Source: Coffea arabica
Taxonomy: Eukaryota > Streptophyta > Magnoliopsida > Gentianales > Rubiaceae
NCBI RefSeq assembly: GCF_036785885.1
Contig: NC_092323.1
Span: forward strand, 17,864,501-17,928,500
Length of the DNA stretch: 64,000 nucleotides
Reading direction: 5' to 3'
Under the pieces are notes generated by a model that worked only from the letters and a program-made list of their open reading frames with translations, was not told where the DNA came from and ran no database searches. Shown in pieces: positions 5,551 to 61,985 of the stretch (position 1 is its first letter; the number at the start of each line of letters is the position of its first letter). The translations under genes and the position numbers were made by a program.

Positions 5551-5891
5551 AATATCTGTCAGACTGCTTTAACAAATAGTGGTCAGCAATTCAGGAAACT
5601 CAAGATAGAAGAGGAGTGGAGGACCAGGTCAATCTCACCATCAATATACTCTGGCAGATATGGAAAGCTAGGAATGACAGAGAGTTTAACCATAAGGAGA
5701 AGGAGCCTTTTAAGATAATAGAGAAGGCTCTAAGGGAATGGACAGAATTTGATTAAGTTAACAAAGGAAAGGATTCAAGAAAGAGCACTCAAGAAACAGA
5801 ACTACAGCAAAGGACTGATCACGATCAAAATGAGAGTCACTCTGGACTGACTTTAAAGATCCACACTCATCAGGATAAAGGACAAGCAGCA

Positions 5892-6387: not shown

Positions 6388-6920
6388 ACTTGATTTTGCA
6401 TCCTCGATCATTCCCTTATCATCCACAATAAATAAAATTGTAAATATCTACATAGGATCCATATAAAAGTATAATATAGACATCTATTCATTTAAGCATC
6501 TTGATGTGAAAAGGATCACAATTAAGCTCTTAAAAAATAATAAAATAAAAAATTGGAAAAAAAGAGTTTCACGCGATTCTAGCGCACTTCCCACATGCAT
6601 TGCACATGCATCGTTGCTACCTATACTCTAATGTCCCTCTCGACTGTGAATTATTTTTTATTAGTAGACAATATCTTTTGTGTTTTTTTTTCTTTTCCTT
6701 TCCAAAATTCCATTTAAGTTAAGAGTTTGATCCTCTTACCTATGTGCTTAGGTAGGGAAAGATATAAGGGGTGCAAGTTGCAACTTCAATTAGGTCATTC
6801 TTTCAAGAAGAAGGCTCCATTGTTATCCTTTCCCTTTTTTTTTAATGGCCTGCCATCTCTTTCCATACCCTTTCTATCCTTAACTGTTAGGTACTATGTA
6901 TTTGAATTATGAATTTGACA
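6388..6920. repeat. 0.53 kb segment duplicated at 31316-31862
   Basis: From 'tacttgattttgcatcc' to 'tttgaattatgaatttga' this segment matches 31316-31862 with only scattered substitutions and short poly-T/poly-A length differences. Both copies are in the same orientation. LINE copy 1 ends exactly at its left edge. Neither copy has a convincing gene; a 61-codon frame is shared but is interrupted by variable homopolymers. Confidence 0.85.
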
Positions 6921-17200: not shown

Positions 17201-17358
17201 CATCTTAAACCTCTAGTCAGTCTGTCTATCACATGCTTCCTATTCTTTGTCTCACTCAAGAAAACCAGGTTTGGAGAGGAGAGGTTATATACCTCCCTCA
17301 GATGGGGAACTGTCAAGGGGCTCCCCACACCTTGACAGTTCCACACCAAAACTCTCAT
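14227..17358 (-). CDS. LINE copy 2 ORF2: endonuclease and reverse transcriptase (1043 aa)
   Basis: It opens MRVLVWNCQGVGSPL, the start of an APE-type endonuclease. SETK, GDFND and RLDR follow at expected spacing within about 230 residues. The reverse transcriptase follows: WLREGDKNTKYFH, APGQDGMTPLFFQ, YRPISLC, AFIPDRQILDN, KLDMAKAYDRV, GIQQGDPLSPYLF and FFADDS. The expected SDH motif of the endonuclease reads ASDPRKER, so the catalytic histidine and about ten residues are missing compared with copy 1. The frame ends at a TAG at 14227-14229, after which the same frame continues as zf-RVT and RNase H. The start overlaps the ORF1 stop (ATGA). Confidence 0.88.
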   Translation of the reverse strand: MRVLVWNCQGVGSPLTVPHLREVYNLSSPNLVFLSETKNRKHVIDRLTRGLRCDGNVTVEAMNKACGTALLWSQDANILEVYKSAFTIEAKLEDPDTQVSWWFIGIYVSCDPMIRKEQWRVLSNRRNLWGTRYIITGDFNDILSNDEKWGGVLRQERSFKDFRDFIDQNSLIDIGFEGQPWTWSNHWDNEGEVRQRLDRCLCNMEWFQVFEKARYQHIDTFASDPRKERRKKRFCFDKRWLQREGIQQVIEKAWSKEEQGSRMFKITKKVKNCKIELLKWRNTFQANSRQRITDLKKDFQRVKESSFDNRKEILTHIKDQLKAAYKEEENFWCQKVRISWLREGDKNTKYFHSYVKGRRVSNRIRTLQRENGSWTTNEEEIVAEISEFFKELFNSGRRGDMSEVLDGIPQSITQEMNERLTKAVEEKEIHEALFSMSSEKAPGQDGMTPLFFQRFWSTIKCDVIPAIKAFFTSGYMLKSVNHTVISLIPKILHQTSLKNYRPISLCSVLYKIISKILTNRLKSILDKCISKTQFAFIPDRQILDNVMIAHEYMHYLKNKRQGNYGYMAIKLDMAKAYDRVEWHFLQAMMEKMGFCPVWINWINSCLKTVTYSFNCNGEAKGFVTPGRGIQQGDPLSPYLFLIYSEGLSNLLRKAEDSNRIQELKISRQGPVLTHLFFADDSLIFCKADKQQATEIMNVLKIYEAASGQLINLDKSAVFFSRNMISDQREEVRQALRGMNEAKQGKYLGLPMVISRTKDQIFGFVRENIKRRLQNWKSKFLSSAGKEVMLKSVAMAMPTDVMSCFKLPRKLCKDISALMANFWWGETSGRNKMHWTSWERMARKRNEGGLGFKDLEAFNKALLGKQIWRILTKPNLLVSKVLKAKYFPKESILHCNPPKNASMIWQGLMGPRSLLDRGLIRRIGNGRNTRIWEHKWIPETISGMPSAVKPNNCDLERVDELICHNRWNKNTIFRVFNRDDAERILSIPLSLSGREDSYYWQPQAGGKYTVNSSYKIQMKNNKKARKSISEVAGSSYIERSQHVS

Positions 17359-18830
17359 GTTCCTTGAGGGGTCCCTTTCAGGCAGGTCCCCCTAACCTCT
17401 CCCTTTATCTCAGCAGAATAGAATTCTATCATAGGTTTAGTCTTTTTCCACTGGATTATCTCAGAATTAGCTTCCTCCATCTCTTCATCCCTCAGCAAGA
17501 CTTTTCTCTTTCCAAAATTCGACTGACTTGCTCCATTTTCATTTAACTCTTTCAAAGGTCTCCTATTACTGGTTGGGGACTTCAGTCTTATGAACGTCCT
17601 CTTAGCTTGTTTGTCCTTAGCCTCCTGTACCTTTCCAGTCACCATTGATTCCTGGTGGATCACTAGCGCTCCTACAGATTTCTCATTGTCCACTAGTCCT
17701 TGATTTTGATTCTGCATCTCTATCTCTCTATCCTCCTCCCTCACTTCCACTGCCATAGGGGATTGATTTTCTTCCTCAAACTGGATCACTAGTGGGAGAT
17801 CAGGACCTCTCGTTTCTAGGTTCATGATGTCTTCACTACAGTCTTGGGTTCCTCCCTTATTTTCCTTTACTATTGGTGAGGCTCCCCTACCCTATTTTTC
17901 CTTCGCCTTCTCCCTTTCCTCCCTCCCTTTCTGCGAGCTATGGTCTTCCTTACCAGACGACAGCAGAGATTCTAAAAGACTTTGATTCAAAGGACTCCTA
18001 TTTCTATTTTGTTCAATCAATTCTCCTTCCTGGAATCTCCAATATCTTTTGTCACTCGAACCTTCATTCCTAGTAGGTTGTTTCTGAGGTGAGCTCCTAG
18101 TATTTCCAGCTCTCAACCAGGGCCCGTACTGGTGGCCTCCCATGCTTCCCCTTACCACTCTCTTATCCTTACAAGACCTCTCACTGTGTCCTACTAACCC
18201 ACAACTATAGCAAAAATCAGGACACCTCTCATACTTAAAAGCTATCCACTTCAGAGCTCCTGCAATCCTAACCACAGTACCCCTGAGCAGGGGTTTAGAC
18301 AGGTCAACTAAAGCTAAAATTTTCAAGTGCCTGCCCACTTTCCCTCCATTCTGAGGGATTAGCACCTCTCTTACTTCTTTGAAAACAACCCCTATCTTGT
18401 TTCCTACCTCTTTAGACAGCCAGTGAACTGGCAAATTCCAGAGTTGCACCCAAAGGGGCGCAGTCATAAAGGCCCTGTAATCCTCTTCTATCCCTTCCTT
18501 CCACCTATTTAAGACTAACAGTTGATTATCCATGACCCAAGGACCACCCTCAATAATTCTTTCCTTATCAACTAGGCTAGGGATGTTGAACTGAAAAATA
18601 TTTGGGCCAAGTTCCATCACTGTCATATTCCTAGGGTATCCCCAAGCAGCAGTTACGAAATTTTTTACCCCTGTAAAGTTGACAACTTTCTCACCTATAA
18701 CTCTTCCTATCAGGCTTTCATCGCAGGCTCTAACTTCTTGATGGAGATCTCCAAATTCTAACATGGCTCCAAGGAGCTCATTCCTCTCCAGAGAGAATTT
18801 TTTTAAGAGCTCAGCTAGGTCTTCTTCCAT
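17355..18830 (-). pseudogene. LINE copy 2 ORF1 (gag-like, CCHC), one in-frame stop
   Basis: Starts MEEDLAELLKKFSLERNELL and carries a DUF4283-like region (GGPWVMDNQLLVLNRW, WVQLWNLPVHWLS), then the zinc knuckle CYSCGLVGHSERSC at about residues 218-231. This is the RNA-binding ORF1 of plant L1 elements, thought to coat the element RNA. A TAG at 17892-17894 interrupts the frame after residue 312. The same frame then runs open to 17355, giving about 491 codons in all. The final TGA overlaps the ORF2 ATG as ATGA, suggesting coupled translation of ORF2. Confidence 0.85.
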
Positions 18831-19066
18831 CGATAATGTCAGATACTTCAGGATAGTATTCCACTACACACCCAGGAGGAAAACCAGAATGTAGGAGGAT
18901 TGGAACAGAAATATTAAACAATAAAAAACAAGGAAAGTTTTCTGGTGTTTAGGTGCATCTACTAACAGAAAATGATGAAAAAAAAGATGAAAAAAGATGA
19001 GGATGGCACATAAATAGAGTTCTCTGGTCGCAATACCTCTAAACATCAGACAGAGGAAGTAAAGAC
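18831..19066 (-). other. LINE copy 2 5' UTR, proximal part
   Basis: Non-coding sequence between the ORF1 start and the nested hAT. The remainder of the 5' UTR lies at 21767-22075. Together they give about 540 bases. No motif is recognised. Confidence 0.6.
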
Positions 19067-19311
19067 TAGGGATGTAATCGAGCCAAGTCAAACTCGAATA
19101 TTGCTATACTCGAGCTCGACTCGACTCATATATGCCTAGGCTTGAACTTGGCTCGAGCTCGATCGAGTCCAAAAAATCGATACTCGAAACTTGACTCGAG
19201 GAATTTCCTTTAGGCTCGAGACTCGACTCGATAAGGCTCGACCTTTAGTCAAGCCTTATCAAGTCGAGTCTAATCAAGCTTTTTGACTCGACTTGACCAA
19301 AAAATGAGATC

Positions 19312-23007: not shown

Positions 23008-23674
23008 CTTCTTAGCCAAGTCCATGAGACAAGATCCTAGAACTTCAAATCCTGTCTCTGTGACGATAGTTGTCTGAGATTCACGGATGGCATCAGGGAC
23101 AGTAGGAATAACAAGGGCCATCAACCGTCCATCGACGAGCTCGTGTGCCCTTGCATTCAGAAATGACTCCAGGTCCTTGGCAAATTGAGATGCATAAACC
23201 TCAAGAAGTTCCTTTTTGGCCCCTCCGTGGTGAATCTTTCCTTTGTTCCATGCAGGGGACGTGTTGTCTGTAACCTCTTTTGGCACATCTGAAAGCCACT
23301 GAAGCGCGCAAGATGAGTGAGCAAAATGGAGGGATGCCTTTGGGAGCAAAACCTTGTGGAAGTCACCTGGCACTCCAGCTGCAAGGTAGTGTCTCTCTGG
23401 TGGAAGTGAAGCAAAAAGTGTGTTGAAATCATTAGATATATGGTCATTAAAAAAGACTTGAAACTCGGACTTCAGATGCTAGTCCCTCTTTTCTGAGTTT
23501 TTCCTCCAGGGCTTCTCTTATCACTTTCGTGGCCACAAATGTATTTGGTCCTGTAGAACAGCCAAAATCTGCTATGCGAAATGGATGCACAGAGGTTGAA
23601 GAAAGTTGCTTGACATCAAGTTCTTTGTCAATCTCTTCTTTGATAAGTTCTTTTGCAACGTCTACTGCTCCTCT
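23008..23674 (-). pseudogene. SABATH copy A, exon 2 (2-bp deletion)
   Basis: Begins after an AG acceptor with RGAVDVAKELIKEEIDKELD and ends LMDLAKK at a GT donor. It is 667 bases long, two fewer than expected. The first 70 codons and the last 125 codons are in different frames because of the deletion near 23467 (SEVRVSS in place of SEVPEFQ). Apart from that both parts read well. It contains the SAM-binding motif and the GDFHKVLLPKASLHFAHSS region. Confidence 0.85.
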
Positions 23675-31862: not shown

Positions 31863-32589
31863 TTGACTTTATGTGTTATACAAAAATAATTCACAAAAGA
31901 CAAACTTATTTTGAAAATTTTCTAAAAATTTTCATACATGATACTAACAATTGTCCCTTCTGTGCTGAAGGCATAATTATAGACCAACTTTAGATGGAAC
32001 AAGGACGTTAGTACCTTGGAATTAGACCTAAAATTGAACTTAGATAAGAATTTCACTAAATTGTACCATCCAACTAAATTGTACATTTTCTCACATGGTA
32101 TGAGAATACTAAAAACAAAAAATTTTAAATACATTACCCTTACTTGAATTAACAATGTGTTAGCATGTTTTTTGCATTGGTGAAATTAACTTGTTATTTG
32201 CATGCGTAACTAAGTTGAAAATTATTACGACTATATGATACCCCTTCTAATTTCAAAATCTCCATGTAAGGTGTAATTATCATTTTTTAATCTGTCTTTG
32301 AAAAAAAAAAAAAAAAAAGAATCTACGTTGTTATTCACTAGAACGTTACATGCTTTTAATCTTAAAAAAAATTTCGTGGAGGAGAGCTTGGTGTGAACCC
32401 AGTGAGTTTTTACTAATAAATCGTACCATGCCTTCTAACTTTTAATTCTTGAATTGTTTCTTATCATAAAAGCGCATTATCTATCAGTATTTTCTTGATG
32501 ACAATGATAAATAATTCAAAGAATAGTATTATGAAGGCAATTTATTGATATTTCACAAAAGAAAAGTTGTTAATTAACTTTTTTTATAT
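31863..32589. other. Intergenic, nothing recognised
   Basis: AT-rich, no credible gene or terminal repeat seen. Confidence 0.4.
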
Positions 32590-32870
32590 ACTATAAGGGC
32601 CCCAATGTCTTATTAGTGTATCTAGGATTGGAGGGTATGGATTTAAGTCCTTCCTTTTATGAATTATTTAATTCCATTGATTTCTTCCTAGCAAGAATTT
32701 TCCTCTTCTATGTTCTCTTATTTAGTAGTCATCAATCAACAAAGAATATAATCTTGTTGGTAGGTAAATTTCAGATTCTAGCATACCTAATATGCCCTAT
32801 AGTACATACATGCAATTCCTTTTTTTATTATTTTATTATTAGGACATATGCATCATTGGTTGGAAGGAGT
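32590..32870 (-). repeat. Dispersed repeat family R2, copy 3 (inverted)
   Basis: The reverse complement of this stretch matches 25920-26060 and 26280-26380. It runs through 'gtagtcatcaatcaac' and 'tagcatacctaatatgc'. It lacks the poly(T) and about 200 bases present in copy 1. The long open stretch that covers it is accidental. Confidence 0.65.
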
Positions 32871-33143
32871 AAAGGTATAGGAAACAAAGTCATGGATACT
32901 AGTACTATTTTATATTTATTCCAAACAATTTCCAAAGAGAAGTCAAATGAAATCCTTCTTCAAAATTTCTCAAGAACAATAAGGAGGCAAGAAAAAAGGA
33001 TAGCAAGAAAGCAAAGCAAAATCAAAGTTCAAACTTTCTTTAAAAAAAAATAAAAAAATAAAAAATGCCCCAAATATCCAATGCCTAAATTGCATTTCTT
33101 GGGCCGAGTTAAGTAAAGACAAACTATCTCCTTATAAGCCATG

Positions 33144-35022
33144 GGTGTGTTTGGATCCCTTGTTTTTGGGGTTGTTTTTGAAAAACTGTTTTTCACATTC
33201 CAAATGCTACAGTAAATGTGTATTTTCAAAACAACTCCAAAAACACCATATCCAAATATTATATCAAAAACAACTACATATGTATATTTCAATTATGTAT
33301 ATTATATATATAAATATATATATATTATATTAATATAAATTGAAATATACAAATTGAAAATTATATATATTATATATTATATAAATATTTATATAAATTA
33401 ATATTATACATAATATTGTATATTATACATAATATAATATAATATACATAATATGTAATATTGTATACATACATGTGTAAATATTTATACATAATATATT
33501 ATGTACATTATATTATAATATATACATTATTAATGTATAATATTATTATGTACATTATTGTGTATAATAATGTTATGTATAATATATAATATACATAATA
33601 TGTAATAATGTAATAATGTATATTATGTATAATATATTATATTATGTATATTATGTTATATATACAATATTATGTAGATTATACAAATTGAAAATTATAT
33701 ATTATATATTTATATAATATATATTATATGAATATTTATATAATGAAATATACAATAAATATTACAAATTGAAATATTATATAAACACCATATTTATAAT
33801 ATTATAATATTTATAATTAATATTAATGTATATAATAAATTTTAAATATTTATTTATTTATTTATACATATTATAAATACTTTTATATATTTATATGAAT
33901 ATTATATATTATATAAATTATATATCATATAACATATATTATATATTATATATATTATACATTTATATAAATGTACATTTATACATAATATATATATATA
34001 TATTAATGCATATTTATAATATACATTTATATTATGTATTATATATAATATAATACATTTATACATTTATATTAATATACATAATATTAATTATATATTT
34101 ATACATAATATTAATACATTTGTACATTTATATTAATTATATTAATACATTTATACTTAATACTAATATATATTATTAAAATTATAATTTATACATTTAT
34201 ATAATATTTAGTTGTAATTTATACATTTATAATAATATAGACTTATATGTTTATAAATATATTTATATTATATATTATATATTATATAATACATTTATAT
34301 ATTTTTATATAAATACATAAATATATTTATTTATAAATATTTATAAATGTATTATAAATGCATAAATGTATATTTATATAAAAATATAAAAATTATAATT
34401 TATAATTTATACATTTATATAATATTCAGCTATAATTTATACATTTACAATAATATACACTTATACATTTATAAATATATTTATATTATGTATTATATAT
34501 AATATAATAAATTTATAATACATTTATATATTTTTATATAAATATGTAAATATATTTATTTATAAATATTTATAAATGTATTATAAATGCATAAATGTAT
34601 ATTTATATAAAAATATAAAAATTATAAATTATAAATTGTAATTTATGCATTTATATAATATTCATTTATAATTTATACATTTATAATAATATACACTTAC
34701 ATATTTATAAATATATTTATATTATGTATTATATATAATATAATACATTTATATATTTTTTAGCGAATATATAAATATAATTATTTATAAATGTATTATA
34801 AATGCATAAATGTATATAAAAATTATAAAAATACCCAAAAATATGTTTTAAAAATACCTCTAAAAACAATCCAAAAAATATCTACAATAAAAGTTTTTCA
34901 TATAGTTTTTGAAAAACAACTCCAAAAATAACTAATCCAAACGGACTTGTATTTCAAAAACAAAATGCTACAGTACTGTTTTTGAAAAACAACCCAAAAA
35001 ACAGCTAATCCAAACGGAGCCC
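33144..35022. mobile_element. Terminal-inverted-repeat element with A/T-only interior
   Basis: The left end (ggtgtgtttggat, ttttggggttgtttttgaaaaactg, atgctacagt) is the inverted counterpart of the right end, which on the other strand reads GGGCTCCGTTTGGATTAGC and runs through ttgtttttcaaaaacag and tactgtagcatttt. The flanks carry ATG at 33141-33143 and 35023-35025, a possible 3-bp duplication. GGG(T/C)..GTTTGG ends with a 3-bp duplication suggest PIF/Harbinger, but the duplication is not the usual TWA. A second right-end-like stretch sits at about 34840-34945. Confidence 0.6.
33270..34830. repeat. 1.5 kb nearly pure A/T tract with ~220-240 bp tandem units
   Basis: Almost only A and T with very few C or G, built of 'tatata', 'ttataatatt' and 'atttatac' words. 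From about 34190 to 34830 a unit of roughly 220-240 bases recurs about three times (each with 'taatttatacattta' and 'tataaatgcataaatgtat'). It lies inside the terminal-inverted-repeat element. Confidence 0.85.
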
Positions 35023-35025
35023 ATG

Positions 35026-35388
35026 TTATTGGACAAACGCTCAACAACACATGCGCCCTACTCAATCGTTTCCGGGCATTTGAGGGCTCGCTCTGGACTG
35101 GGACTCGCCCCTACGCTTGGTTCAGAAAATGCCTTTGAAAACACTAATTACGATTATTAGCTCCAACCGTAGTTTGTTTGTGGAGGTCCAAGGCCGAACT
35201 TTCTCAGTAACTTTTGCTGTCGGTGGATGGTTGGAGTTATGAGCGGACACGAGGCGTGGATGCTATCAGTAACAATTGTTTGGAATAATGTAACATTTTT
35301 TTAATAAGGTATAAATTCACGTGAATTACTTATAAAATTTAGTATTACATATGAACCTTACATGAAGTATCGCAATTATTACTTTCAA
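35026..35388. other. Intergenic, nothing recognised
   Basis: Includes a locally GC-richer stretch (35035-35260) with no domain-bearing reading frame. Confidence 0.35.
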
Positions 35389-36877
35389 GGTTTATAAAAT
35401 CGGGATCCTACGTAAGATCGATTTTAATTTTACATAATCGGATCATAGAATCGTAAGATCCCACCAAAAGCTCCTAAATTAATGAATTTGAAATTCATAT
35501 ACCATTTTGCACATCCTAAAAGATTTCAAATAAATAGATAACTCATAAATATTTTATACTATATTGTCCATTTCCTGTTTTGAGTTTTAACAATCAGACA
35601 AGGAACCTTTACTTGATCTACTAATGTTTTCTTTACAACCTTTCAGCCGAAAAGTTGTGTTTTTGCACTGGCCTGTAGTAGAATGTAGAATAGATGATCA
35701 TAGCAAAACTAGCTGCTATAGATATAGACGATGATCCATATGGCTTGCAATAATAAACTAACATTGTAAAAAGGGCAACAAATGAAGCCTAATATATAGT
35801 TGAGTATCATTGACCACTATACATCACTTGTATGCATCTCAAGTCAAGTTTGAAACAAGCAAACAATTCCAGTTCATATTGGCTTGCCAGCCATTTAATT
35901 TTCAGACTTACATTTTATTAATTCTCCGTAATTTAATTCTAATGTGCTAAAATTAAGGAAGCAACCAATCAACACAACAACAGCGGCCTGAAATACGTGG
36001 CATGGGGGCCTCATAATCATTCATTCATGGGTTCAAAAGAAAAGATGAAAGAAAGCTGCCGACGATCATCAATTTGCAGGCATGTGGTGTGGAGCAACAA
36101 CTATGGAGGATTTGAGTAGAGAAATGCTTAGCCAAGCAAAAGGAATACTATAAGGCGATGAATAATCTTGGTCTTGGTCTTGGGGGCCCATCTAAAACAA
36201 AAAATAATTTGCAATGCGTGAAAGTGACTTAAGATCTAAATTCTAGAGTAATTCAGTTGGCTGGAATCCGGCGGCAACAGAGGAGATTTCGTCTTGAAGG
36301 TGCCAAAATCCGGCGGCAGCAGAGGAGATTTCGTCTTGAAGCCTTACGAAATCTAGCTTGAAGCCTTGAAGCTGTAGCTTGTTGGTAATTGGTAAAAGCC
36401 GCAGCGATTTCGTCTTGTTGGTAGGCGTAGGAGTTGCAGCAGTTTGATGGATAAATTCTAGGGTTTTGGGCAGCGGTGGAGAAGAAAAGAAAAGTGCAGG
36501 CTGAACCGCTGAAGAATGAAGTAAAGAGCAAAAGAAACGACGAAGGAAAGGAGTCAAAGGCTGACCGACTAAGGAAAGGCAAAGATGAGAAGAATCGGTG
36601 CTTTTTTTGACATTTTGAGCAAAAATGGTTAAAACATTGCAATTAAAGGCTGCAATTCTTTGATAAATTACAAGCCTACCCCAAATGTTTTCATTTACTT
36701 GCAAAATGAAGTCTCGAATTTCACATATTAGCAAAATTTTGTAGGATCGTACGATTCTATACGATCCTATCGATCTTACCAGCAATTAATGCAATTTGCG
36801 ATTTTGAATGCGATCCGGATCGATTTTGGTTATCCGGATCGTAGGATCGTACGATCCGGATCGCGATTTTGACAACC
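35389..36877. mobile_element. Candidate terminal-inverted-repeat element (hAT-like)
   Basis: The left end reads GGTTTATAAAATCGGGATCC. The right end on the other strand reads GGTTGTCAAAATCGCGATCC, and both sides are followed by clusters of 'ggatcgtacgatcc'-like words. No target duplication was found, so the call is tentative. Inside, a roughly 48-bp unit (ccggcggcaacagaggagat) is tandemly repeated at about 36255-36345. The long - strand frames here are repetitive and not a known protein. Confidence 0.4.
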
Positions 36878-37275: not shown

Positions 37276-39010
37276 CAATGTTTTCAGAATCGGACCGGAC
37301 CGGCCGGTTCAACCGGTTGGACAGCGAACCGAACAGGCCACCGGTCCAGTCTAGAGCTAAAGTCGAAGAGTAATGAAAAATCGCTAGAAACAGGATGACT
37401 CGGACGAACCGTGAAAAACCGCACATACCGTGAACCGGCAGTTTTTGAAACTTTTCAAAATTAATTTCCAATTTGCAACCACCAAGAATCGAACACCCGG
37501 ACGAACCGTGAAAAACCGCACGAACCATGAACCAGCAGTTTTTGAAACTTTTCAAAATTAATTTCCAATTTGTAGCCACCAAGAATCGAACACCAGACCT
37601 TGCATTTGTCACAAGGAGCCCTTTACCATTGAACCATAGCCAGCAGACAATTGTTTTGTGTAGATATCTACTTAATTTATTAAGTGAAAAACTAAAAATA
37701 CCAACCTAAGACACATCAAACTTATTTCTTTGTATATAAAAAATATATAAATGCAAAGATAGTAATAATTGTTAGAATATTTATATATATATATAATAAA
37801 TTAGGTGAATATTAAATGTGTTAGGGCAACCGTTAGAAAAATTCTTTAATAAAATAGCTTTTTCAAATTATTTTTTTTAATTTTTGTAGAAAAATGTACA
37901 ACAACAGTTTAATGTGTGTAGCATAAAGACAATCAATAAATAGATTAGTGAAAAAATAAAAAATTTAAAAAATGACAATCCAAACAAGGTCTAATTTGGT
38001 AACTAAATTGAATTGTTTAGATAAGTTATTATTTAAAAAATTTTTAATTACATCAGAAACACTTATGCTTTACATCATAAATACATTGTTGGTATATCAA
38101 TGTTTGTTAATGTACTCCCCTTGATTATTAATGTAATCCCCTTGATTTTTTAATTTGTGAAAATAAATAAAAATACTCAAACTTTTAATTTCAGTTACAA
38201 TCTCACAATAAAATAGTGGTTGAAATGCAATAACAGATAGAAAGATTGAATAGGGATATTCCTGCTCAATTGACATTGTAGACAAGTATTTAGGAAAAAA
38301 ATTGATAAATAATTATTATTTTAAAAAATTATTTATAATTACATTGTACACATTCGTACTTTACATCATAACTCCTAGATTTTTTTTTATTTGTGTGAAT
38401 AAACAAAATACTTAAAAATTTTAATTTCAATTACAATCTCAAAACAATATCGTAGGTAGTAAGATTGAATAAGGATATTGTTACCTAATTGACTGGTAGA
38501 TAAGTATTAGAAAAGGGAACATCGATAAATAATTCGGCGCTAATAACAATTTTCTAGTGGACAAAAAATGTGAATATGGAGAATTTTTTTCTTTTCTTTT
38601 TTCCTTTCCAATGAATATGGATCGAGTGAGAATGTCAAATGGCCGAAATGAAAACACAAATTTGGTATCTGGCTAGATGTCAAATTTGAAAACACAAATT
38701 TCAGATTCGTGTGATAGAGGATATCGGGCTGGATATTTTTTAGTATTACTTCAAGAAGGTTCCACATTCCTCTGAAGTCTTATTTAGACCCATCTCAAAT
38801 TTGAATTGCATCATTACCGAGTTGGGCCTGACAATAGCCTGTACCATGTTCTTGGACATCAACCTTCAAAGTTTAAGCTTGTAGCTGTAGGCAGTGAACT
38901 ATTTCCGGAAAGAAAGATGTTTATTTAAAAAAAAAAACAGTGAACCGGCCGGTCGGACCGCGAACCGGTACCTTCTCCGGTTCACTGCCGGTCCGGTTCT
39001 GAAAACATTG
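37276..39010. mobile_element. hAT element with 8-bp target duplication
   Basis: The inverted ends read CAATGTTTTCAGAATCGGAC on the left and CAATGTTTTCAGAACCGGAC on the right (other strand), followed by 'ccggttc'-rich subterminal sequence. The exact 8-mer CCTTAGAT flanks both sides (37268-37275 and 39011-39018). It is 1,735 bp and non-autonomous. A 97-bp unit is tandemly repeated at 37401-37497 and 37498-37594. The open frames across that repeat are not proteins. Confidence 0.88.
37575..37645 (-). repeat. tRNA-like module inside the hAT element
   Basis: On the - strand 'tatggttcaatggtaaaggg' resembles a Pol III A box region, and 'ggtgttcgattc', about 35 bases later, resembles a B box. It is too diverged and truncated to fold as a tRNA. 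It could be a SINE head or a tRNA-derived piece. Confidence 0.35.
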
Positions 39011-44490: not shown

Positions 44491-45241
44491 CAATAATGAC
44501 ATCTCCTACTTCATTATTATTATGGGCGTATTTAATAAGGGTAAAACACAAAGGGCCTTCACATATCCATTTTAGAAGGCGTTATCTCAAACTCATAAGA
44601 AAGTCCACGTCTTGAGATTTATGCCCTTAAGGGCGTGAATTCTAGGAAGAACCTCTTTTTTTTTTTTTTTGGGCATAAGTGAGAGATTTTAAATCCTGAA
44701 CTTCTTGCTTCACAATCCCTCCGTCCTGCCTTCATACATCCCAAAACTCAAGGACTTTTGCGGCCGTGAAAGTCATAACAGAAGCCCTCCAGGAAAAACT
44801 CAGAACAGAGGGACTAACAGTAACATCTGAAGTCCCTGAGTTTTGAGTCCTCTTTAGTGATCATATATCTAATGATTTCAACACTCTTTTCTCTTCACTT
44901 CCACCGGAGAATAACTGCCATGCAGCGGGAGTGCTTGGTGATTTCCACAAGGCCTTGTTCCCAAAGGCATCCCTTCATTTTGCTTGCTTATCTTGCGCGC
45001 TTCACTGCCTTTCAGACGTGCCAAAAAAGGTTGCAGACATCATGTCCCCTGCATGGAACAAAGGAAAGATTCACTATGGAGGTGCCAAGATGGAAGTTTT
45101 CGAGGCTTATGCGTCTCAATTTGCCAAGGACGTGGAGTCATTTACATGGAGAAATTTCTAATTTTGTGATGACTTTTAAAAAAATTCTACAAAAGGGGTG
45201 ATTTTGGTTGGGTATTCCGTAGGGGGTCTTCGCATTTGCGG

Positions 45242-45271
45242 AATGCGAGCTCTGCTTATTGAGCTCGCATT
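45242..45271. repeat. Hairpin palindrome near the left end of the Mutator-like element
   Basis: Arms aatgcgagctc and gagctcgcatt, 8 bases apart. The same arms form the hairpins at 48269-48295 and 48331-48357 near the right end. Confidence 0.85.
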
Positions 45272-46774
45272 AATAGAGCGTATAATTTTTTTTTTCTCAT
45301 TAAATTTTTTCCAGAAAATAGTATGAGCTAAATGCGAGCGGCTAAATAAAAATTTTCAAATAGCTTGCATTTGATAAATTTGACCTCCAAAAATTGTATT
45401 TAATTTTTTTTGTTACATTTCGCATTTATAAGTATGACTTTCAGAAAATTAAATTCAAAGTTGCTAGAAAAAAAAATTTTAAATGAAATTTACGAGCTTC
45501 CACCAAAATGTATCTTTTTCAGAAAATGTTGTTTATTTTGTAAAATTTGCCTTTACTAAAATGCTGTCGGTAGTAAAATCTTATTTTAAAAACTCTACTA
45601 AGATCTTATATTTCACAGAAATGTTAGAGAAATGTTATTTAAAAATCTGTAATTAGCAGAGGAATAAATTTTTTTATTTTAAAACTTGCACGTGCCTAAA
45701 GTCATCAAATTTGTGTTCTAAAAAAATCATATTTCTTTTATATTAAAAAAATTGGTAATTGTACGGTTGAAAATACGTTATTTTATTATAATACATTTAA
45801 ATGGTGGAAAAAGTACATATGCATAGTTCTTTCTATTTCATATATCAATGAAAAAATAGAATGAAATTGTTAACATGTAAGGTGTTGACTATATTTTATG
45901 AATAAAATACTAACTTATTTTCCTTTTTTATAAAATAATTTTTTTTAACAAATTCTAATTTTCCTTTGTTATTAATGAATCGTATTTATTCGTTAACACC
46001 GACGAATATTAGTTATAAGAATCTAATAGTTAATAGTCATTAATATCTGTTACATTTTCAACTGTAATTTCAGAAATTTCATAACGCAATGTTTTTTTAA
46101 AAAAATTATATAAGTTATTTTTATGAAGTGCATGTTATTTGTTTGGTAGTTGAAAAGGAAAAGAAAAAAATTAAATCAAATATCTAGCGATTAAATCTTG
46201 CGTATTTCACCTTTTACAATTATTGGCAGGATTACTATTTTGATTAAAAAAATAAAGCGATAATCAAGGCAAATTTATTGCCATGCAAAAATCCTAAAAC
46301 CCTAAGTGCTGAAGGCATAAAACACGAAATCGTAAATCTTAGAAACCAAATCCTTGTAAACCCTAAAACATTAAATCAAGGTTGTTGGGTTAATTAAAAT
46401 CCATTAAAAAATATTTTTGCGGCTCGATAGGATTACTATTTTAATTAAAAATCTAAAGTCCTAATCAAGGCACACTATTGTCAAATTAAAATCCTACAAC
46501 CCTAAACCCGAAAGTGCTATTCTCCTAAAACACTAAATCTTGATCTCTAAAACCCTAAAACCCTGAATCCTAAAAGCCTCAAACCCTGAGTGCTATATCT
46601 AATGTAGTTGATGGGCTGAACCAAAGATAAGATGTTTTCTTTTGTCTACAACTCATTTGGTCTTCTCTTTTGTTGCAGAAACATGTGCCACCGATTTCTG
46701 TCCCTCAAAATAGTTGGAAAAGTTGTGAGAAAGGTAAAGGAAAACGGCTGTGCCACTTGCTGAAGAGATAGGCA

Positions 46775-46947
46775 AATCCGAGCCTCGGATCCAAGGGTTG
46801 AATATAGATCCGAGCTCGGATCTTTAGGATCCGAGGACTTCCCATGATGGATCCGGGGTCGGATCTTCTGACTTTGGATACATTCCTCCGGAAGTACAGA
46901 CGAGGGATCGGATCTCTTTTTGCTCTCACGGATCCGAGCTCGGATCC
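46775..46947. repeat. Palindrome cluster based on ATCCGAGCTCGGAT
   Basis: Perfect units occur at 46806-46823 (agatccgagctcggatct) and 46930-46947 (ggatccgagctcggatcc). Diverged units (cctcggatcc, ggggtcggatc, gggatcggatc) lie between and beside them. Confidence 0.85.
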
Positions 46948-47382
46948 GTGCCATTAAATTTCCAGTTTTTTCGCTTCTTGCCTTTTTCCTTCATTTTTCC
47001 TCCTAATTTCTTGTGTACTTTATCCTCTGGACAATCCTTACACTTGTTTCAGCTAGTGCATGAACTTCATATATCGATGTCTCTCACATTTCACAAAATT
47101 AATGCATTAATCCACTCACAATTTCACAAAATTGAACATTTTGGCCATTAACTTGAAATATTGGAAAATTTTTTAAAATCTTCTCGGGAAACACAACTCT
47201 AATGTACGATTTACGCATAGCTGCCTTAGAGAAATTCGTTTCTCATTTGCATCTCATGTTTAATTCCCTTAATTAGAACCCATTTTCTATTTTAAACGGA
47301 GCTTGCCCCTTTTTTCTTTTTTTTTTTGTTTTATCTTCCTCAACGCAAAAAAATAGACATTTTTAAAAAAATTATAATAACA

Positions 47383-47500
47383 GAGAAATTTCTAAAATTA
47401 TGATGAATTTTAAAAGAATTCTACAAATGGGACATTTTGAGCATGGGATTCCGTCCAAAGGGTCTTCACATTCAGCAAATGCGAACTCACGGAGCTCGAA
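47383..47500. repeat. Internal copy of the Mutator-like terminal sequence
   Basis: Direct repeat of the left end at 45149-45270, starting gagaaatttcta and including gaattctaca, gggattccgt, agggtcttc and atgcgaactca. This could be the start of a second element ending at 48452. Confidence 0.75.
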
Positions 47501-47570
47501 TTTTTGAACAACGAAATCCAAAAAAAAAATTAAATGAAAAAAAACCAGACCTCGCATTTATGAAATGCGA

Positions 47571-47767
47571 GGATCCGAGCTCGGATTATTTCTGGCATCC
47601 CTCGGATCCAACAGGGTTCGGATCCGTCTCAACAGATGCTCAGACGAGCCCTCGGATCTTAGTTAACAACTATGGATCCGAGGTCGTATCACCCATTTTC
47701 GCCTTTGATTCTCAAAGGATCCGAGGTCAGATCCGTCTGTGTTGCGTCGGATCCGACCTCGGATCTT
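47571..47767. repeat. Second palindrome cluster based on ATCCGAGCTCGGAT
   Basis: Starts with ggatccgagctcggatt at 47571-47587. At least six diverged units follow (ccctcggatcc, gttcggatcc, ccctcggatct, ggatccgaggtcg, ggatccgaggtcagatcc, tcggatccgacctcggatc). Confidence 0.8.
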
Positions 47768-48268
47768 GCTTTTTCTGCACTAATTGCAGAAACTGCAAAT
47801 AAACTGCAACAAATTGGAAACAGAAAAATTGCAAGAATTCGAAAAATGTAACGTATATCTTCAAGTCCACCACAAAAATTGCAAAATTAAGCACAACCCA
47901 CATCAAATTTATACCCAAATTTCACAACAAATCTGAACTTGCCCTTGGATTCAAGTATTCAAGTATTAATTCAAGTATTAAGTGACGCATTGCAAGTGGA
48001 AAAGCCTCACCTTTATGCTGTTTGAGAGTCACAATGGGACGGCAATGCTGGCAAATTTTGGGAAGCGGCACTCGCGGAACCAGTCTTTCGATGCTCCGGT
48101 CAGCTCCGATGTTTGGATGCTTCGATGTGCAGAACCCAGCTCTGTTTTCTTTGTTTTGCTGTTCGGCCACTCTGTTTTCTTTGTTTTGCTATTTGACAGA
48201 CTCACTTTTCTCTTTTTTTTTTCGAAATGGGGTGTTGGCGCTCCTCAGTGTGTGACCTCGCATTCGGG

Positions 48269-48357
48269 GAATGCGAGCTCACTGAGCTCGCATTCGAGGT
48301 CAGTGGTCACACACTGACCTCGCATTCGGGGAATGCGAGCTCAGTGAGCTCGCATTC
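48269..48357. repeat. Paired hairpin palindromes near the right end
   Basis: Two hairpins with arms gaatgcgagctc and gagctcgcattc separated by 3 bases, at 48269-48295 and 48331-48357. Between them lies 'gaggtcagtggtcacacactgacctc', itself an inverted repeat. Confidence 0.9.
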
Positions 48358-48590
48358 CCCAAATGCGAAGACCCTATTTTTAGAAACCACTCCGCAAAAC
48401 GCCCTCGTTGTAGAATTCCTTTTGTTTTCCATCATAAACTAAGAATTCACCCCATTTACATGAGCTGGTCGATGGAGGGTTGATGGCCCTTCTACCCCTG
48501 TTGCTGTCCGTGAATCTCAGACAACTACCATCACAGAGGTAGAACTAGAAGTTCTAGGATCTTGCCTCATGGATTTGGCTAAGAAGGTGA

Positions 48591-49400
48591 GATTTCACTA
48601 GTTTCAGATCTTCTTCAACTAAGAACTCTATTTGAATAACCCTCAATGTTGGGACGCAAAGTAGAATTTTGATTTTTTTTTTCAACACTTGAATAGTATT
48701 AAATTCGAACATTTATCTTCTAGCATTGGATAGTAAACAGTTTTAGATAGTCAAATTAGTTAAATTATTCATTTTTGAATTCAAATGGCATTCGGAATTC
48801 ATTTTTTACGCTTCTACGAACATGTGGGATGGGATTTTTCTGGATCAGATCGTTGCAGGAAGGGGCAGCGGCCCCTCAAGAATTTTAAAAATTTCACTCG
48901 CACTCTTATGAATTCTAAAAAGTTAATTTGTATTATGAATTTGGCCTTAAGAAATTATTCTGATATCAGTTACTTGCCCCTCTTCCCAAGCTTGAGTGAG
49001 AATTTGGTATCCTGTTGAAATATTTTTGACATTTTACTTTTGCCCCACAAAAACTTCAAACATTTTACTTCCAAACAACAATGTAAATGAGTCTAATTAA
49101 ATCAAACACTCAAGTCTTCAAACTTGTCTGTAAATTTTAAAGAATTTAAAATTGCGTTTAAATTTGGCTTCTTTATTCATTGTTTTGAGTTCACATGAGC
49201 TTTTATCGAATTGAGCTCGATTGAATTTTTCACATACAAACTTGTCACTTAAATTAGTGAGAAAATATTTAATCAAATCATTAGAAATATCATATGTGGT
49301 TATTTAGGCCACACAAAATATATATTCTAACATGATGTCGTCAACCAAGCTTATAGTTGGACAATAAGGTATGTGAGATTTTATTCTTTGTTATTCATCC
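48591..49400 (+). other. SABATH copy D intron 2 (partial)
   Basis: Reverse complement similarity to intron 2 of copies A and B (for example 'ttcagatcttcttcaactaag', 'caagcttgagtgagaatttggtatcctg', 'acactcaag.cttcaaacttgtct'). It stops before exon 3, joining the 3' flank of copy B. The join defines the tail-to-tail inverted pair. Confidence 0.65.
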
Positions 49401-51146: not shown

Positions 51147-51814
51147 CTTCTTAGCCAAGTCCATGAGGCAAGATCCTAGAACTTCAAATTCTTTCTCTGT
51201 GACGATAGTTGTCTGAGATTCACGGATGGCATCAGGGACAGCAGGAATAACAAGGGCCATCAGCCCTCCATCGACTAGCTCGTGTGCCCTTGCATTCAGA
51301 AATGACTCCAAGTCCTTTGCAAATTGAGATGCATAAACCTCAAGAACTTTCTTTTTGGCCCCTCCGTGGTGAATCTTTCCTTTGTTCCATGCAGGGGACG
51401 TGTTGTCTGTAACCTCTTTTGGCACATCTGAAAGCCAGTGAAGTGCGCAAGATGAGTGAGCAAAATGAAGGGATGTCTTTGGGAGCAAAACCTTGTGGAA
51501 GTCACCAGGCACTCCAGCTGCAAGGTAGTGTCTCTCTGGTGGAAGTGAAGCAAAAAGTGTGTTGAAATCATTAGATATATGGTCATTAAAGAAGACTTGA
51601 AACTCAGGGACTTCAGATGTTAGTCCCTCTTTTCTGACTTTTTCCTCCAGGGCTTCTCTTATGACTTTCATGGCCACAAATGTATTTGGTCCTGTAGAGC
51701 AGCCAAAATCTGCTATGCGAAATGGATGCACAGAGGTTGAAAAGGTTGCTTGACATCAAGTTCTTTGTCAATCTCTTCTTTGATAAGTTCTTTTGCAACC
51801 TCTACTGCTCCTCT
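51147..51814 (-). pseudogene. SABATH copy B, exon 2 (1-bp deletion)
   Basis: 668 bases, one fewer than a 669-base ancestral exon. From 51731 to the donor at 51147 the frame is fully open and reads normal SABATH sequence (SEVPEFQVFFNDHIS is intact here, unlike copy A). Confidence 0.8.
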
Positions 51815-59154: not shown

Positions 59155-61425
59155 TCAAGGTGTAAAACTGAATAAAGCCGCTTTCATTTGTTCTGGAGAA
59201 TAAAATTGAAATTCTGCACATGATTCTATATTTGCCTTAAGATGCTTCAGAGTTGCATAAATCATATTACAGCAAGGATGGGTTCTATCTTCTACACTGA
59301 ATATATTGGTTCTGCTATTTATATCAATCCAGCTACATCCAGGATCCTTCTTCACTTCTAGCTCTTTCATTATCTTTCGGGCTTTTATCTTCTCCCCCCA
59401 CTTCCCCAATGCGGCATACATGTTAGACATCAAAACACATGTAGGCTTAGGGTCCAAAGTAAACATCTTGTGGGCCACTCTCTCACCCACATCAATGTCA
59501 ATCCAAGACCAACATGCGTTTAACATTGTAATCAAGAGAATTTCATCAGCCACAAATGGCATCTCCTTCATAAGCTCCTCAGCTTCCAGAAGCAGACCAG
59601 ATCGACATAAAAGAGCCACCGCACAAGTAAGATGCTCCAACGATGGGGCTAGACCATAAGCTTGTTCCATTGATAGGAAAATCTCCATCCCCTTATTGAC
59701 CAAACCAGCAGCAGTACATGCAGCTAAGACAGCAACAAGGGTTGCAGCATTTGGGTTTATTCCCTGATCCAACATTTGCTCAAAAAGCAAGGTTGCCTCA
59801 GATCCAAGACCATGATGTGCGTAGCCACAAATTAAAGCTGTCCAAGCTGCTACATTAGGATTTGAAATGCAAATAAAAGATGCTTGAGCATCAGAAATGC
59901 TCCCACACTTGGAATACATGTCAACAAGAGCTGTACCAACATAAATATTCAACTCGAATGGAGTTTTAGTCAATTGACTATGGATCTGCTGCCCTTTCTG
60001 AAGAGCCCCAAGACATGAACATGCACGAAGCAAAGCAGAAAAAGTTGATCTGGTTGGGGATATTGACAACCTACGCATGTCTATATATAAATTTATTGCA
60101 TTCTCATGTTGATCATTTTCAATATACCCTGAAATCATGGAATTCCAAGTAACAGGGCTTCCTTGTTCTTTAGTTTCTTCAAAAAGCTCCAGAGCTTTAT
60201 GAATTTCACCAGTCTTGCACAGCACATGAATCATTGTATTCAAGCAAATTAAACTTCTTGCTGGCGTTTCCAGAAATAACTTCTTTGAATCCTCTACTCG
60301 ACCAAACAATGCATATCCCTTGATCATCAGACTATATGAAACTGAATTCCTCTCAACTAATCCACTAAAAACCAATTCAGCTTCCTCAACCTTACCCATT
60401 CTTAGAAGCCCACCAATTAAAGTGTTCGAAATGTTCCTACATGGATTCTCCAATGTATCATAAATCTTCTTGGCATCGCCAATAACTTCACTGTTACTGT
60501 AAAAGTCGACAAGAGCACCACTAATTGAAAGTTCAAGCTCAAACCCCAATTTTATCAGAAGCCCGTGTACTACTTTTCCTTCAGGCAAAGCGCCCAATCT
60601 TCCACAAGCCCTTATGATGGAATCCAAAGTGAACTCATTAGGGACTGCTTCGGTTCTCATCCTCTGAAACAACTCCAGAGCCTCTTTACATCCACCATCA
60701 ATCTTCACATAACCTGAAATCAATGTAGTCCATTCAACAACACCCCGGCGAGGCATCTTGTTGAAAACACTCAACGCATCATCCAGTAGATTATTCTGAA
60801 CATAGCCCACAAGCATCAAGCTCCATAACAACTCATTCGTCTCATGTAAATCATCAAACACTTGTCTAGCTTTCCCAATATCGCAACAACTTGCATAAAA
60901 GTAGAGCAAAGAACTCCCCACAAACTTAAAACTCTCAAGACCAGATTTTAAAACCAAACCATGAATTTGCTGTCCTTCCTCACCCAATGACCGGCCACAG
61001 ACGCTTAGTGCTGACGAGCAAGTGGTCTCGTTGAGCTTTGCATTGGAGCAGTGCATCAGAGAAAGCAAAGACAGTGCTTCATTGAACTTGCCCCATTTCG
61101 AGTATCCAGAGATCATGGCGTTCCATGAGACTACTGTTCGTTCAGGCATTTCGTCGAACACTCTTCGGGCATGTTCGAGTTGCCCGTTCTGGACGTGCCC
61201 CGTAATAGTCATGTTCATGGATTTAATGCCTTTATATCCAGAGCAATGGGGTCCCTGACGACGGCCATCGGGTACGGTGCAATACAATCTTGACATACTT
61301 TTCCAGCGTCGGTGCTTCCAGCTGCCCAAAAATGAGGATTTCATAACCTCGTGATATGTCTTTAGAGTGCAAAACTGGGGACTGGGACGAGCGCACGGCC
61401 TGAAAGGCTGAGAGCGACTGAGCAT
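59155..61425 (-). CDS. Pentatricopeptide repeat protein, PLS class with E domain (756 aa)
   Basis: A single open frame without introns, typical of plant PPR genes. The N-terminal 60 residues are rich in R and S and lack acids early on (MLSRSQPFRPCARPSPQFC), suggesting an organelle transit peptide. About sixteen PPR motifs follow from residue 65 to 650, with ARRVFDEMPERTVVSWNAMI, IHGLVLKSGL, ALVDMYSKCGSISDAQ and NVAAWTALICGYAHHGLGSE in P, L and S types. An E/E+ tail is seen near the end (DPGCSWIDINSRTNIFSVED). There is no DYW domain. Such proteins bind organelle RNA in a sequence-specific way, often for C-to-U editing together with a separate deaminase. This is the only clearly intact host gene in the window. 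Confidence 0.93.
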   Translation of the reverse strand: MLSRSQPFRPCARPSPQFCTLKTYHEVMKSSFLGSWKHRRWKSMSRLYCTVPDGRRQGPHCSGYKGIKSMNMTITGHVQNGQLEHARRVFDEMPERTVVSWNAMISGYSKWGKFNEALSLLSLMHCSNAKLNETTCSSALSVCGRSLGEEGQQIHGLVLKSGLESFKFVGSSLLYFYASCCDIGKARQVFDDLHETNELLWSLMLVGYVQNNLLDDALSVFNKMPRRGVVEWTTLISGYVKIDGGCKEALELFQRMRTEAVPNEFTLDSIIRACGRLGALPEGKVVHGLLIKLGFELELSISGALVDFYSNSEVIGDAKKIYDTLENPCRNISNTLIGGLLRMGKVEEAELVFSGLVERNSVSYSLMIKGYALFGRVEDSKKLFLETPARSLICLNTMIHVLCKTGEIHKALELFEETKEQGSPVTWNSMISGYIENDQHENAINLYIDMRRLSISPTRSTFSALLRACSCLGALQKGQQIHSQLTKTPFELNIYVGTALVDMYSKCGSISDAQASFICISNPNVAAWTALICGYAHHGLGSEATLLFEQMLDQGINPNAATLVAVLAACTAAGLVNKGMEIFLSMEQAYGLAPSLEHLTCAVALLCRSGLLLEAEELMKEMPFVADEILLITMLNACWSWIDIDVGERVAHKMFTLDPKPTCVLMSNMYAALGKWGEKIKARKIMKELEVKKDPGCSWIDINSRTNIFSVEDRTHPCCNMIYATLKHLKANIESCAEFQFYSPEQMKAALFSFTP

Positions 61426-61985
61426 TGTGTTGTAGGAATTTCAAAGTTGCGCCTTCGGAGAAGACGGGGGTTTGAGACACAGTTGAAAAACACGCTTCCA
61501 ACCACTTACAGAGGGACAATTTGTATGGTTTCCAAGTGTATTATTTATAATTGACAATTAGAATTGACTATCACTTAATAGTTTATGTTTTTATTTGAAA
61601 ATTATATTTACACAATCTGCATGATAATTAGCTAACCTTTATGCAGGTGGTACTAGATAGTTTCCTTGATCTCATTCCTTAAAAAGAAAAAAAAACATGA
61701 ACAGAGAAAGGATAGGACTTAAGAAACGAAGAAAGAGCAGGAAATTTGAATCCAAAATTTCTAATTCATAAGGCCTCAACCTTGATCTCATTATCTATTG
61801 TTAATCAAATAAATAAATGAAAGCATATAACTCTCCTGTATTGCAAAATCCTATTACAAAGTATGTGCTAATATTAGTGTAACTTTAGATTTTCTTACTT
61901 TGAAATTCAAGCTCTCAATCACAAGAAATAATGGGATCTAGGAGCACCACTTGGGGATGGCTAACTATCAATTTTTTCGTAGTAA
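61426..61985. other. Upstream flank of the PPR gene
   Basis: AT-rich, presumably with promoter and 5' UTR of the PPR gene (read to the left). No distinct TATA box could be chosen. Nothing else seen. Confidence 0.4.

Follow-up and report, generated by a model that had tools for sequence, protein, structure and literature searches.

A Mutator-like element with palindrome arrays and an inner terminal sequence in a SABATH pseudogene of Coffea arabica

The 64-kb stretch of the Coffea arabica genome analyzed here (hereafter the window) contains, at positions 45149-48452, an insertion within a SABATH methyltransferase pseudogene that carries three copies of its own terminal sequence and two families of short palindromes. 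The question raised by this locus is what kind of element this is and which of these features go with its movement. The insertion is a Mutator-like element (MULE), and the main part of its architecture is ordinary, namely that of a deletion derivative of a plant MUDR-type MULE. The explanation that we favor, and consider likely as a whole, is that the window copy is a non-autonomous, internally deleted form of a large, PMD-carrying MUDR-type MULE that would have been mobilized in trans and whose internal palindrome arrays are putative regulatory sites. Three features are unusual: the inheritance of an inner terminal inverted repeat (TIR) in a multi-copy lineage, the construction of the TIR from repeated palindromic half-sites, and the palindrome arrays, which movement seems not to require and which are nevertheless found at several places in the long element and also in other repeats.

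The insertion and its terminal sequences

The element is flanked by a perfect 10-bp target-site duplication (CATTTACATG; 45139-45148 on the left and 48453-48462 on the right, identical in 10 of 10 positions), in agreement with the 9-10 bp duplication reported in a preliminary description of the locus that was made from the sequence alone. The left part of the interrupted pseudogene (44754-45148, plus strand) is 85% identical to a paralog at 51300-51683 and 84% identical to another one at 23161-23542, and the right part together with the sequence that follows it (48458-48800, plus strand) shows 80% and 79% identity to the paralogs. These two SABATH paralogs of the window, both on the minus strand and identified by Pfam matches to PF03492 (2e-66 and 1e-47), represent the element-free site (23161/23146 and 51300/51285). 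Absence of the element from the orthologous exon had been predicted; it was checked here on the paralogous exon, which runs through the site without the element. Both paralogs contain 14 bp at the insertion point (23147-23160 and 51286-51299) that are missing from the interrupted copy. Because both hold these 14 bp exactly there, the target copy had probably lost them before the insertion and been a damaged pseudogene already; the gap may be an older excision scar or a plain deletion.

The length of the duplication differs from the 8 bp of hAT elements and lies in the 9-11 bp range of MULEs, as do the duplications in 9 of 15 short relatives and at 3 of 4 long loci described below. The ends are also related long TIRs: the left end (45149-45271, plus strand) and the reverse complement of the right end (48332-48452, minus strand) are equal in 85 of 127 aligned columns. 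The third terminal sequence that had been noticed at 47383 is likewise genuine, aligning with the ends over about 120 bp in direct orientation (47383-47502, plus strand; 93 of 127 columns match the left end, 84 of 121 the right one), and has no adjoining duplication. Pairs of these sequences score 79-108, and 200 dinucleotide shuffles per pair never exceed 4. The 10 open reading frames (ORFs) of the window copy include no transposase detectable with Pfam and yielded a single match, below the cut-off, so that coding capacity of this copy was rejected.

The palindromes near the outer ends, which had been described as hairpins within the element, are indeed present but are no separate feature: they belong to the TIR itself, forming its inner third, and are seen in each of the three terminal sequences. 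In the left TIR, this third folds into a hairpin with arms GAATGCGAGCTC and GAGCTCGCATT (z -5.9). At the right end, an extended hairpin of repeated GAATGCGAG half-sites (48258-48368) contains a period-30 repeat (3.4 copies, 71% matches). Folding of 48240-48376 as DNA gives -58.3 kcal/mol for this hairpin (z -13.6). The hairpin of the inner TIR is badly decayed (z -0.83). A TIR built on repeated palindromic half-sites is unusual. The 27-base end hairpin occurs 23 times in the 1.198-Gb assembly that was searched and its control 0 times; an end-hairpin pattern gave 0 matches in a collection of viral contigs and an end-sequence pattern gave 0 matches in a collection of genome contigs.

Long relatives, the internal deletion and the inner terminal repeat

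Searches with the left end (45149-45400) and with the segment 47383-47800 produced at least 51 matches (from the best 40 of 725 candidates) and at least 41 matches (from the best 40 of 1060 candidates), respectively; the 20 left-end loci that were examined are the best matches, not a random sample. Three long elements in the genome have the same termini as the window copy (GAGAAATTTCTA ... AAGAATTCACCC): element A (contig C19; 10,978 bp) with a 10-11 bp duplication containing one mismatch, element B (C18; 15,420 bp) with a 9-bp duplication that begins one base off the left end, and element C (C5; 9,472 bp), which is collinear with rearrangements and has a perfect 10-bp duplication. The left block of the window copy (45149 to about 47180) is collinear with one end of the long elements and its right block (from 47169) with the other; the respective identities of 45149-47178 and 47169-48452 are 95% and 91% in A, and 93% and 95% in B. 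The junction lies at 47169-47182, where the left block ends at 47178 or 47182, the right block starts at 47169 and an imperfect microhomology, TTTTNTAAAAT, is present. Because its two blocks match the two ends of B, the window copy lacks about 12.0 kb of that element at this junction. Thus, it is an internal-deletion derivative of elements of 9.5-15.4 kb with the same ends and duplications.

The transposase-bearing relative with the same ends that the preliminary description called for was found in element B. Pieces between stops on its minus strand match PF10551 (MULE, 1.7e-18) and PF04434 (SWIM, 8.1e-9), and PF03108 (the MuDR DNA-binding domain, DBD_Tnp_Mut) is matched below its cut-off (0.001); together, these matches bear out the classification as Mutator-like. 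The transposase region is followed by PF10536 (PMD, 2.6e-50, profile positions 9-182 of 347) and then by PF20167 (2.5e-22). By its features alone, this organization fits the MUDR-type plant MULEs with a PMD gene. The accessible text of PMC6446971 describes, for the MUDR, MDR and MUDRAVI2 clades, a MURA-like SWIM transposase, a PMD gene, 9-10 bp duplications and TIRs of 30-320 bp, a range that includes the TIR length found here. According to the same text, PMD is antisense in most MUDR members, whereas in B it lies on the same strand as the transposase; the additional PF20167 gene, the three TIR copies and the palindrome arrays also set the present family apart. Under the favored explanation, a MURA-type transposase supplied by a long relative would act in trans on the approximately 120-bp TIRs, and the window copy would have been inserted in this way into the SABATH pseudogene with its 10-bp duplication.

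The inner TIR is present in A and B at the corresponding place, about 1 kb from the right end, and is 99% identical to that of the window copy. Because the long elements carry the third terminal sequence at the same place, it appears, from these alignments, to be an inherited internal feature and not a joint formed in the window copy. The preliminary description suggested instead that a head-to-tail joining of two related elements had preceded their movement as a single unit. The direct orientation of the third terminal sequence, with its own palindrome array close behind, speaks for such a dimer, as does the array behind the left end. However, the matches of the inner TIR at the 40 best places start at base 1 or 2 in only 8 cases and at base 10 or beyond in 32 (29 begin at base 12), so that the outermost bases are mostly lost there. 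Moreover, among the five pairs of inner TIR and right end, the window included, four have no duplication and the fifth has only 8 matching bp, two of them mismatched. This comparison did not include the remaining 7 of 12 loci, which are reversed or have an incomplete right end. Accordingly, the segment from the inner TIR to the right end was rejected as a mobile unit. Given the inner TIR in the long relatives and the pairs without a convincing duplication, no joining event need belong to the window copy, for which the dimer is unlikely; an old head-to-tail origin of the whole MULE family is possible.

With an inner TIR that is at least 100 bp long and lacks a duplication beside it, and with an outer duplication around the whole element, the window copy resembles the MULEs with one extra solo TIR described by Ferguson and Jiang (2012; PMC3310237). 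The accessible text of that work reports the same absence of a duplication at the inner TIR and a transposase that is broken where present. There, only 1 of 12 distinct solo-TIR elements has a second copy, and the expression 'death on birth' is used. In the present family, by contrast, the inner TIR was inherited by a multi-copy lineage, the long member of which contains a (broken) transposase gene.

Palindrome arrays and the short copies

The two clusters of palindromes that had been placed at 46775-46947 and 47571-47767 were recovered at nearly the same positions. Array 1 (46774-46950) consists of 15 GGATCCGAG half-sites with at most two mismatches, several of them arranged as head-to-head palindromes, and occupies the same place in A and B. 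Array 2 (47568-47766) consists of 16 half-sites under the same threshold and could be aligned with 13 other loci. A CTCGCATTTATGAAATGCGAG hairpin (47551-47571), with z -6.1 when folded together with the palindrome next to it, is continuous with array 2, and a CTGCACTAATTGCAG box (47775-47789) lies beside this array; the latter is also found beside the middle array of the long elements and the arrays of two further loci, L054 and L057, that are discussed below.

These motifs are concentrated in the element. The exact half-site GRATSCGAG occurs 15 times in the window, 15 times inside the element and 0 times outside. With at most one mismatch, 19 of the 25 GGATCCGAG sites of the window are in the element (shuffle mean 0.26, maximum 2), as are 11 of the 18 GAATGCGAG sites (shuffle mean 0.6, maximum 3). 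The element also has 49 hairpin seeds, defined by 7-base arms that include three or more G+C and by a loop of up to 12 (mean 1.18, maximum 6 in 100 shuffles). Perfect uninterrupted palindromes of at least 10 bases with at least 4 G+C show no excess in number (4, against a shuffle mean of 1.65 and a maximum of 7) and are exceptional by length alone, reaching 24 bases. The GAATGCGAG half-site of the ends and the GGATCCGAG half-site of the arrays are identical in 7 of their 9 bases, each forms head-to-head pairs centered on GAGCTC, and the two types of palindromes abut at 47551-47586; on this resemblance, they may be two variants of one motif family. The information content around 19 array half-sites (at most one mismatch) is 0.73-2.29 bits in the motif and 0-0.63 bits outside it. 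Because it drops to flank scatter beyond the motif and its mirror half, the half-sites are dispersed sites and no plain tandem repeat. TRF at score 30 reported no tandem array at them, and a tandem minisatellite was rejected as their source.

Which palindromes go with mobility is indicated by the short copies, which constitute a natural deletion test. Among the 20 left-end loci, 13 contain a total of 15 short left-to-right pairs (L018, L019, L020, L021, L024, L025, two in L028, two in L029, one in L030, and L031-L034). Outside this set are L022, where right-end pieces lie 3 kb apart, the inverted arrangement at 1400-4442 of L018, and the long-element loci L015, L016, L017, L023, L026 and L027. 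A duplication of 9-11 bp flanks 9 of the 15 pairs (8 perfect, one with one mismatch). All 15 pairs contain 7-18 GAATGCGAG sites each (at most one mismatch), whereas GGATCCGAG sites are absent from 13 and occur once each in L018 and L021; among the nine pairs with duplications, seven have none and two have one each. Thus, the end and internal half-sites differ in fate: mobility is accompanied by the palindromes of the ends, not by the internal arrays. Because nine of the 15 short copies have duplications and the arrays are absent, the GGATCCGAG arrays seem to be dispensable in cis for movement. The expectation that other copies would keep the palindromes in position holds for the long copies examined and fails for the short ones, which lose the internal clusters. 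As a separate observation, the segment 1400-4442 of L018, which belongs to the same MULE family, has a fold-back structure in which two inverted left ends enclose right-end pieces.

These results bear on the proposal that the palindromes are transposase sites or replication or excision signals. Subterminal repeats bind the transposase in other superfamilies. Within MULEs, the accessible text of PMC5225508 describes Muta1 of Aedes aegypti as having a palindromic terminal motif, repeated subterminal motifs in the TIR and many derivatives with altered interiors. The repeats of Muta1, however, are tandem and located within the TIR, and neither internal arrays nor extra genes figure in that text. 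For the ATCCGAGCTCGGAT clusters, such a role is weakened by the short derivatives that have duplications and lack them (9 of 15), and it appears very improbable that the arrays are transposase-binding or excision signals; for the GAATGCGAG hairpins, kept in all 15 short copies, such a role is possible. The end palindromes might act as DNA or RNA hairpins, either as a cruciform at cleavage or as a transcript hairpin feeding small-RNA silencing. Consistent with this are the stability of the right-end hairpin, the retention of the GAATGCGAG sites and the alignment by shape of microRNA-precursor models (four families, all below the gathering scores) to the right-end hairpin. Nevertheless, the palindromes lie inside the TIR, so that transposase binding alone explains their retention, and the inner TIR hairpin has decayed; a hairpin function is accordingly doubtful. 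An Rfam search of the element gave five matches of four families, all below the gathering scores, and RNA identity was rejected on these grounds.

Among the long elements, all 29 half-sites of A (at most one mismatch) lie in three clusters outside the ORFs taken as genes, and so do 25 of the 26 in B, the remaining one being a stray in an ORF at 6595; C has 18 half-sites in two clusters, and locus D (C9), a further relative, has 16, of which 15 are in two clusters and one is a stray. In B, one cluster (1842-1996) is found past the end of the PF20167 ORF near the left end, one (5653-5808) upstream of this ORF, and one (14690-14885) in the interval that separates the transposase ORFs from the right end. 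The noncoding position is judged from ORFs only; ORFs of less than 100 codons, not taken as genes, overlap the middle cluster. The middle and right clusters of the long elements are followed by TCTGCACTAATTGCAGAAACTGCAA. In the favored explanation, one array thus shares the interval between the transposase gene and the right end with the inner TIR, a second array lies upstream of the PF20167 gene, and a third is located beyond the last gene, close to the left end. The arrays would be clustered putative binding sites for a sequence-specific regulatory protein of the promoter or anti-silencing type, and not transposition signals.

If the protein were encoded by the element itself and counteracted silencing, the arrays would be comparable with the targets of VANC in VANDAL21 and VANDAL6 (PMC5735166, PMC10398659). 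The accessible text of these sources describes arrays of short motifs in noncoding parts of a multi-gene MULE, and the positions outside the main ORFs found here match this arrangement. The VANC21 motif YAGTATTAY is given there as non-palindromic and in one orientation, whereas the present motif is palindromic and occurs in other repeats as well, which a private system should avoid; we do not classify the window element as a VANDAL. The CpG content may speak for such a system. The element has an observed/expected CpG ratio of 1.03, whereas the 109 window tiles (step 500) clear of it average 0.46 and reach at most 1.1, in an AT-rich stretch at 33-36 kb. The ratio is 1.03-1.39 in 11 of 11 short copies, with 0.16-0.98 in their flanks, and 0.83-0.88 in A, B and C. 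Transition rates in a 20-copy alignment are 3.7% at CG, 5.9% at CHG, 3.3% at CHH and 0.6% at A/T; C-to-T change is raised in all contexts, and decay at CG, little above CHH and below CHG, is not specially high. Among the loci examined, no repeat had enough copies to serve as a control for this comparison. Because the short copies with high CpG are array-free, the arrays do not explain the CpG level, which may reflect youth and the CpGs of the TIRs. An element-encoded anti-silencing system like that of VANDAL21 seems unlikely.

A further lead comes from the sequence beside array 2. Two TGCAGTTT boxes at 47790-47808 (starting at 47790 and 47801, minus strand) correspond to the core of the CATGCAGTTT DOWN motif, a MORC1-promoter motif that, according to the accessible part of PMC9899485, may depend on PMD proteins. 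Such boxes are also found near arrays in A, B, C and D. The window holds five in total, three of them outside the element; the two inside compare with 0.156 expected (7 of 500 shuffles reach 2), for a motif chosen after the fact, and B has three against 0.85 expected (15 of 300 shuffles). This association is a weak lead only.

Several observations weigh against the favored explanation. Locus D resembles a shorter relative and has no duplication at the bounds used, and the transposase frame of B is interrupted by in-frame stops, with no intact donor among the copies examined. The short-pair loci were picked as best matches and not at random; six of the 15 pairs (L025, both in L028, both in L029, and L030) have no duplication, the right edge of L030 having been set by hand, and the duplication sequence of L020 is the same as that of L024, so that the two probably stem from a single insertion that was copied along with its surroundings. 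The arrays at different positions are partly duplicates of each other, so that the shared motifs partly reflect shared ancestry. Among related copies, the half-sites of array 2 are slightly more conserved than the spacers (0.937 against 0.917 in 14 sequences; 8 of 58 shifted masks reach this difference), and those of array 1 deviate in the wrong direction (0.894 against 0.922 in nine sequences; 41 of 48 shifted masks). With neither value significant, purifying selection on the half-sites was rejected. CpGs are kept in 111 of 117 motif cells and 54 of 72 spacer cells of array 2, and in 55 of 65 and 29 of 37 cells, respectively, of array 1, but these counts are biased by a mask drawn on the window copy.

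The palindrome in other repeats and other features of the window

The 16-base palindrome GATCCGAGCTCGGATC occurs 1994 times in the genome, compared with one occurrence of the reversed control; six matches to this 16-mer in viral contigs were judged to be due to chance and were not used. The 14 sites that were examined all come from the first-listed contig (C1) and are not a random sample. With the motif masked, seven of them (L050, L052, L056 and L058-L061) match the MULE family over long stretches, and L051 is linked to this group at 67-78% and has one 49-base match to C. Two further groups are less clearly connected. L054 and L057 are 90% identical to each other; L054 matches the MULE family over 73 bases, and L057 over repetitive-looking stretches of up to 272 bases at several places. 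L049, L055 and L062 are 85-91% identical to each other, and L053 is 74-75% identical to two of these; outside the motif, no match to the MULE family was found for L049, L053 and L055, and a single 58-base match to C for L062. Without masking, the matches of L054 and L049 to the family are limited to short stretches at the arrays and, in the case of L054, to 73 bases of C. Thus, the arrays are not confined to their own family, as those of a VANDAL system would be: two repeats that are not clearly members of the MULE family (L049, L055, L062 and L063; L054 and L057) contain the same GGATCCGAG arrays. The site near L049 is found again after 6,941 bp and once more after another 6,949 bp, the first recurrence being 99.7% identical over 1,385 bp, as long terminal repeats (LTRs) or a large tandem array may look; a simple primer-site pattern detected no LTR hallmark around L049. 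L054 and L057 share both the array and the CTGCACTNATTGCAG box with the MULE, and their ORF matched no Pfam family.

The arrays might thus be functionless passengers, in the form of a cassette rich in palindromes that was taken up from other repeats or passed on to them. The joint presence of the array and the CTGCACTNATTGCAG box in L054 and L057, which otherwise resemble the MULE only in short, scattered stretches, is compatible with this, and so are the lack of significant extra conservation and the 1994 genomic copies. On the other hand, the arrays occupy three separate positions outside the main ORFs in two long elements, and the motif is kept while the spacers differ. On balance, this reading is possible but less likely than the one that we favor. 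A more specific alternative, which we consider speculative and quite improbable, is that a single DNA-binding protein, from the host or of PMD type, recognizes a putative cis-regulatory module composed of GGATCCGAGCTCGGATCC and the neighboring CTGCACTNATTGCAG box, and that this module is present in at least three unrelated repeat families of the genome either independently or by passage among them. If so, one factor would switch several transposon families together, and the TGCAGTTT core beside the arrays of a PMD transposon would be a first hint of the pathway. The 18-base palindrome was not found in the literature searched, and neither was a paper on a palindrome shared among unrelated transposons.

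The locus is of interest in two respects. The natural deletion series of long, medium and short copies, many of them with duplications, separates what a MULE needs to move (the TIR with its hairpin) from cargo carried for other reasons (the palindrome arrays and the inner TIR). In addition, GGATCCGAGCTCGGATCC, the 16-base core of which is present 1994 times and in more than one repeat family, provides a DNA probe for whether transposons share or steal regulatory modules and for whether PMD proteins recognize any such palindromes; the contact of these proteins with DNA is an open question, as stated in the accessible parts of PMC7156037 and PMC9899485.

Other parts of the window contain additional repeats and genes. 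An element at 37276-39010 has the ends CAATGTTTTCAGAA and TTCTGAAAACATTG, is flanked on both sides by CCTTAGAT and contains CG-rich CCGGT palindromes near both ends; from the 8-bp flank, we take it to be hAT-like. Its left part produced 49 matches from the best 40 of 782 candidates. A further cluster of CG palindromes is located at 36741-36871 (dense GATCGTACGATCC and CGATCCGGATCG), and CTCGAGCTCGA palindromes occur at 19060-19300 in a CTCGA-rich stretch. Reverse transcriptases, presumably of long interspersed nuclear element (LINE) type, are encoded at 14227-17391 on the minus strand and at 3158-4663 on the plus strand (PF00078, 1.1e-37 and 3.9e-37, respectively); the former is open over 1054 codons and lies beside a DUF4283/zinc-knuckle ORF at 17892-18863. 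The stretch 32000-36000 is very AT-rich (GC 0.21-0.23), with a high CpG observed/expected ratio as well; the translation of 32574-33053, which has no Pfam match, looks ycf1-like to us, and this stretch is perhaps plastid DNA in the nucleus. Finally, 59155-61440 on the minus strand is an open pentatricopeptide-repeat gene with an E motif.

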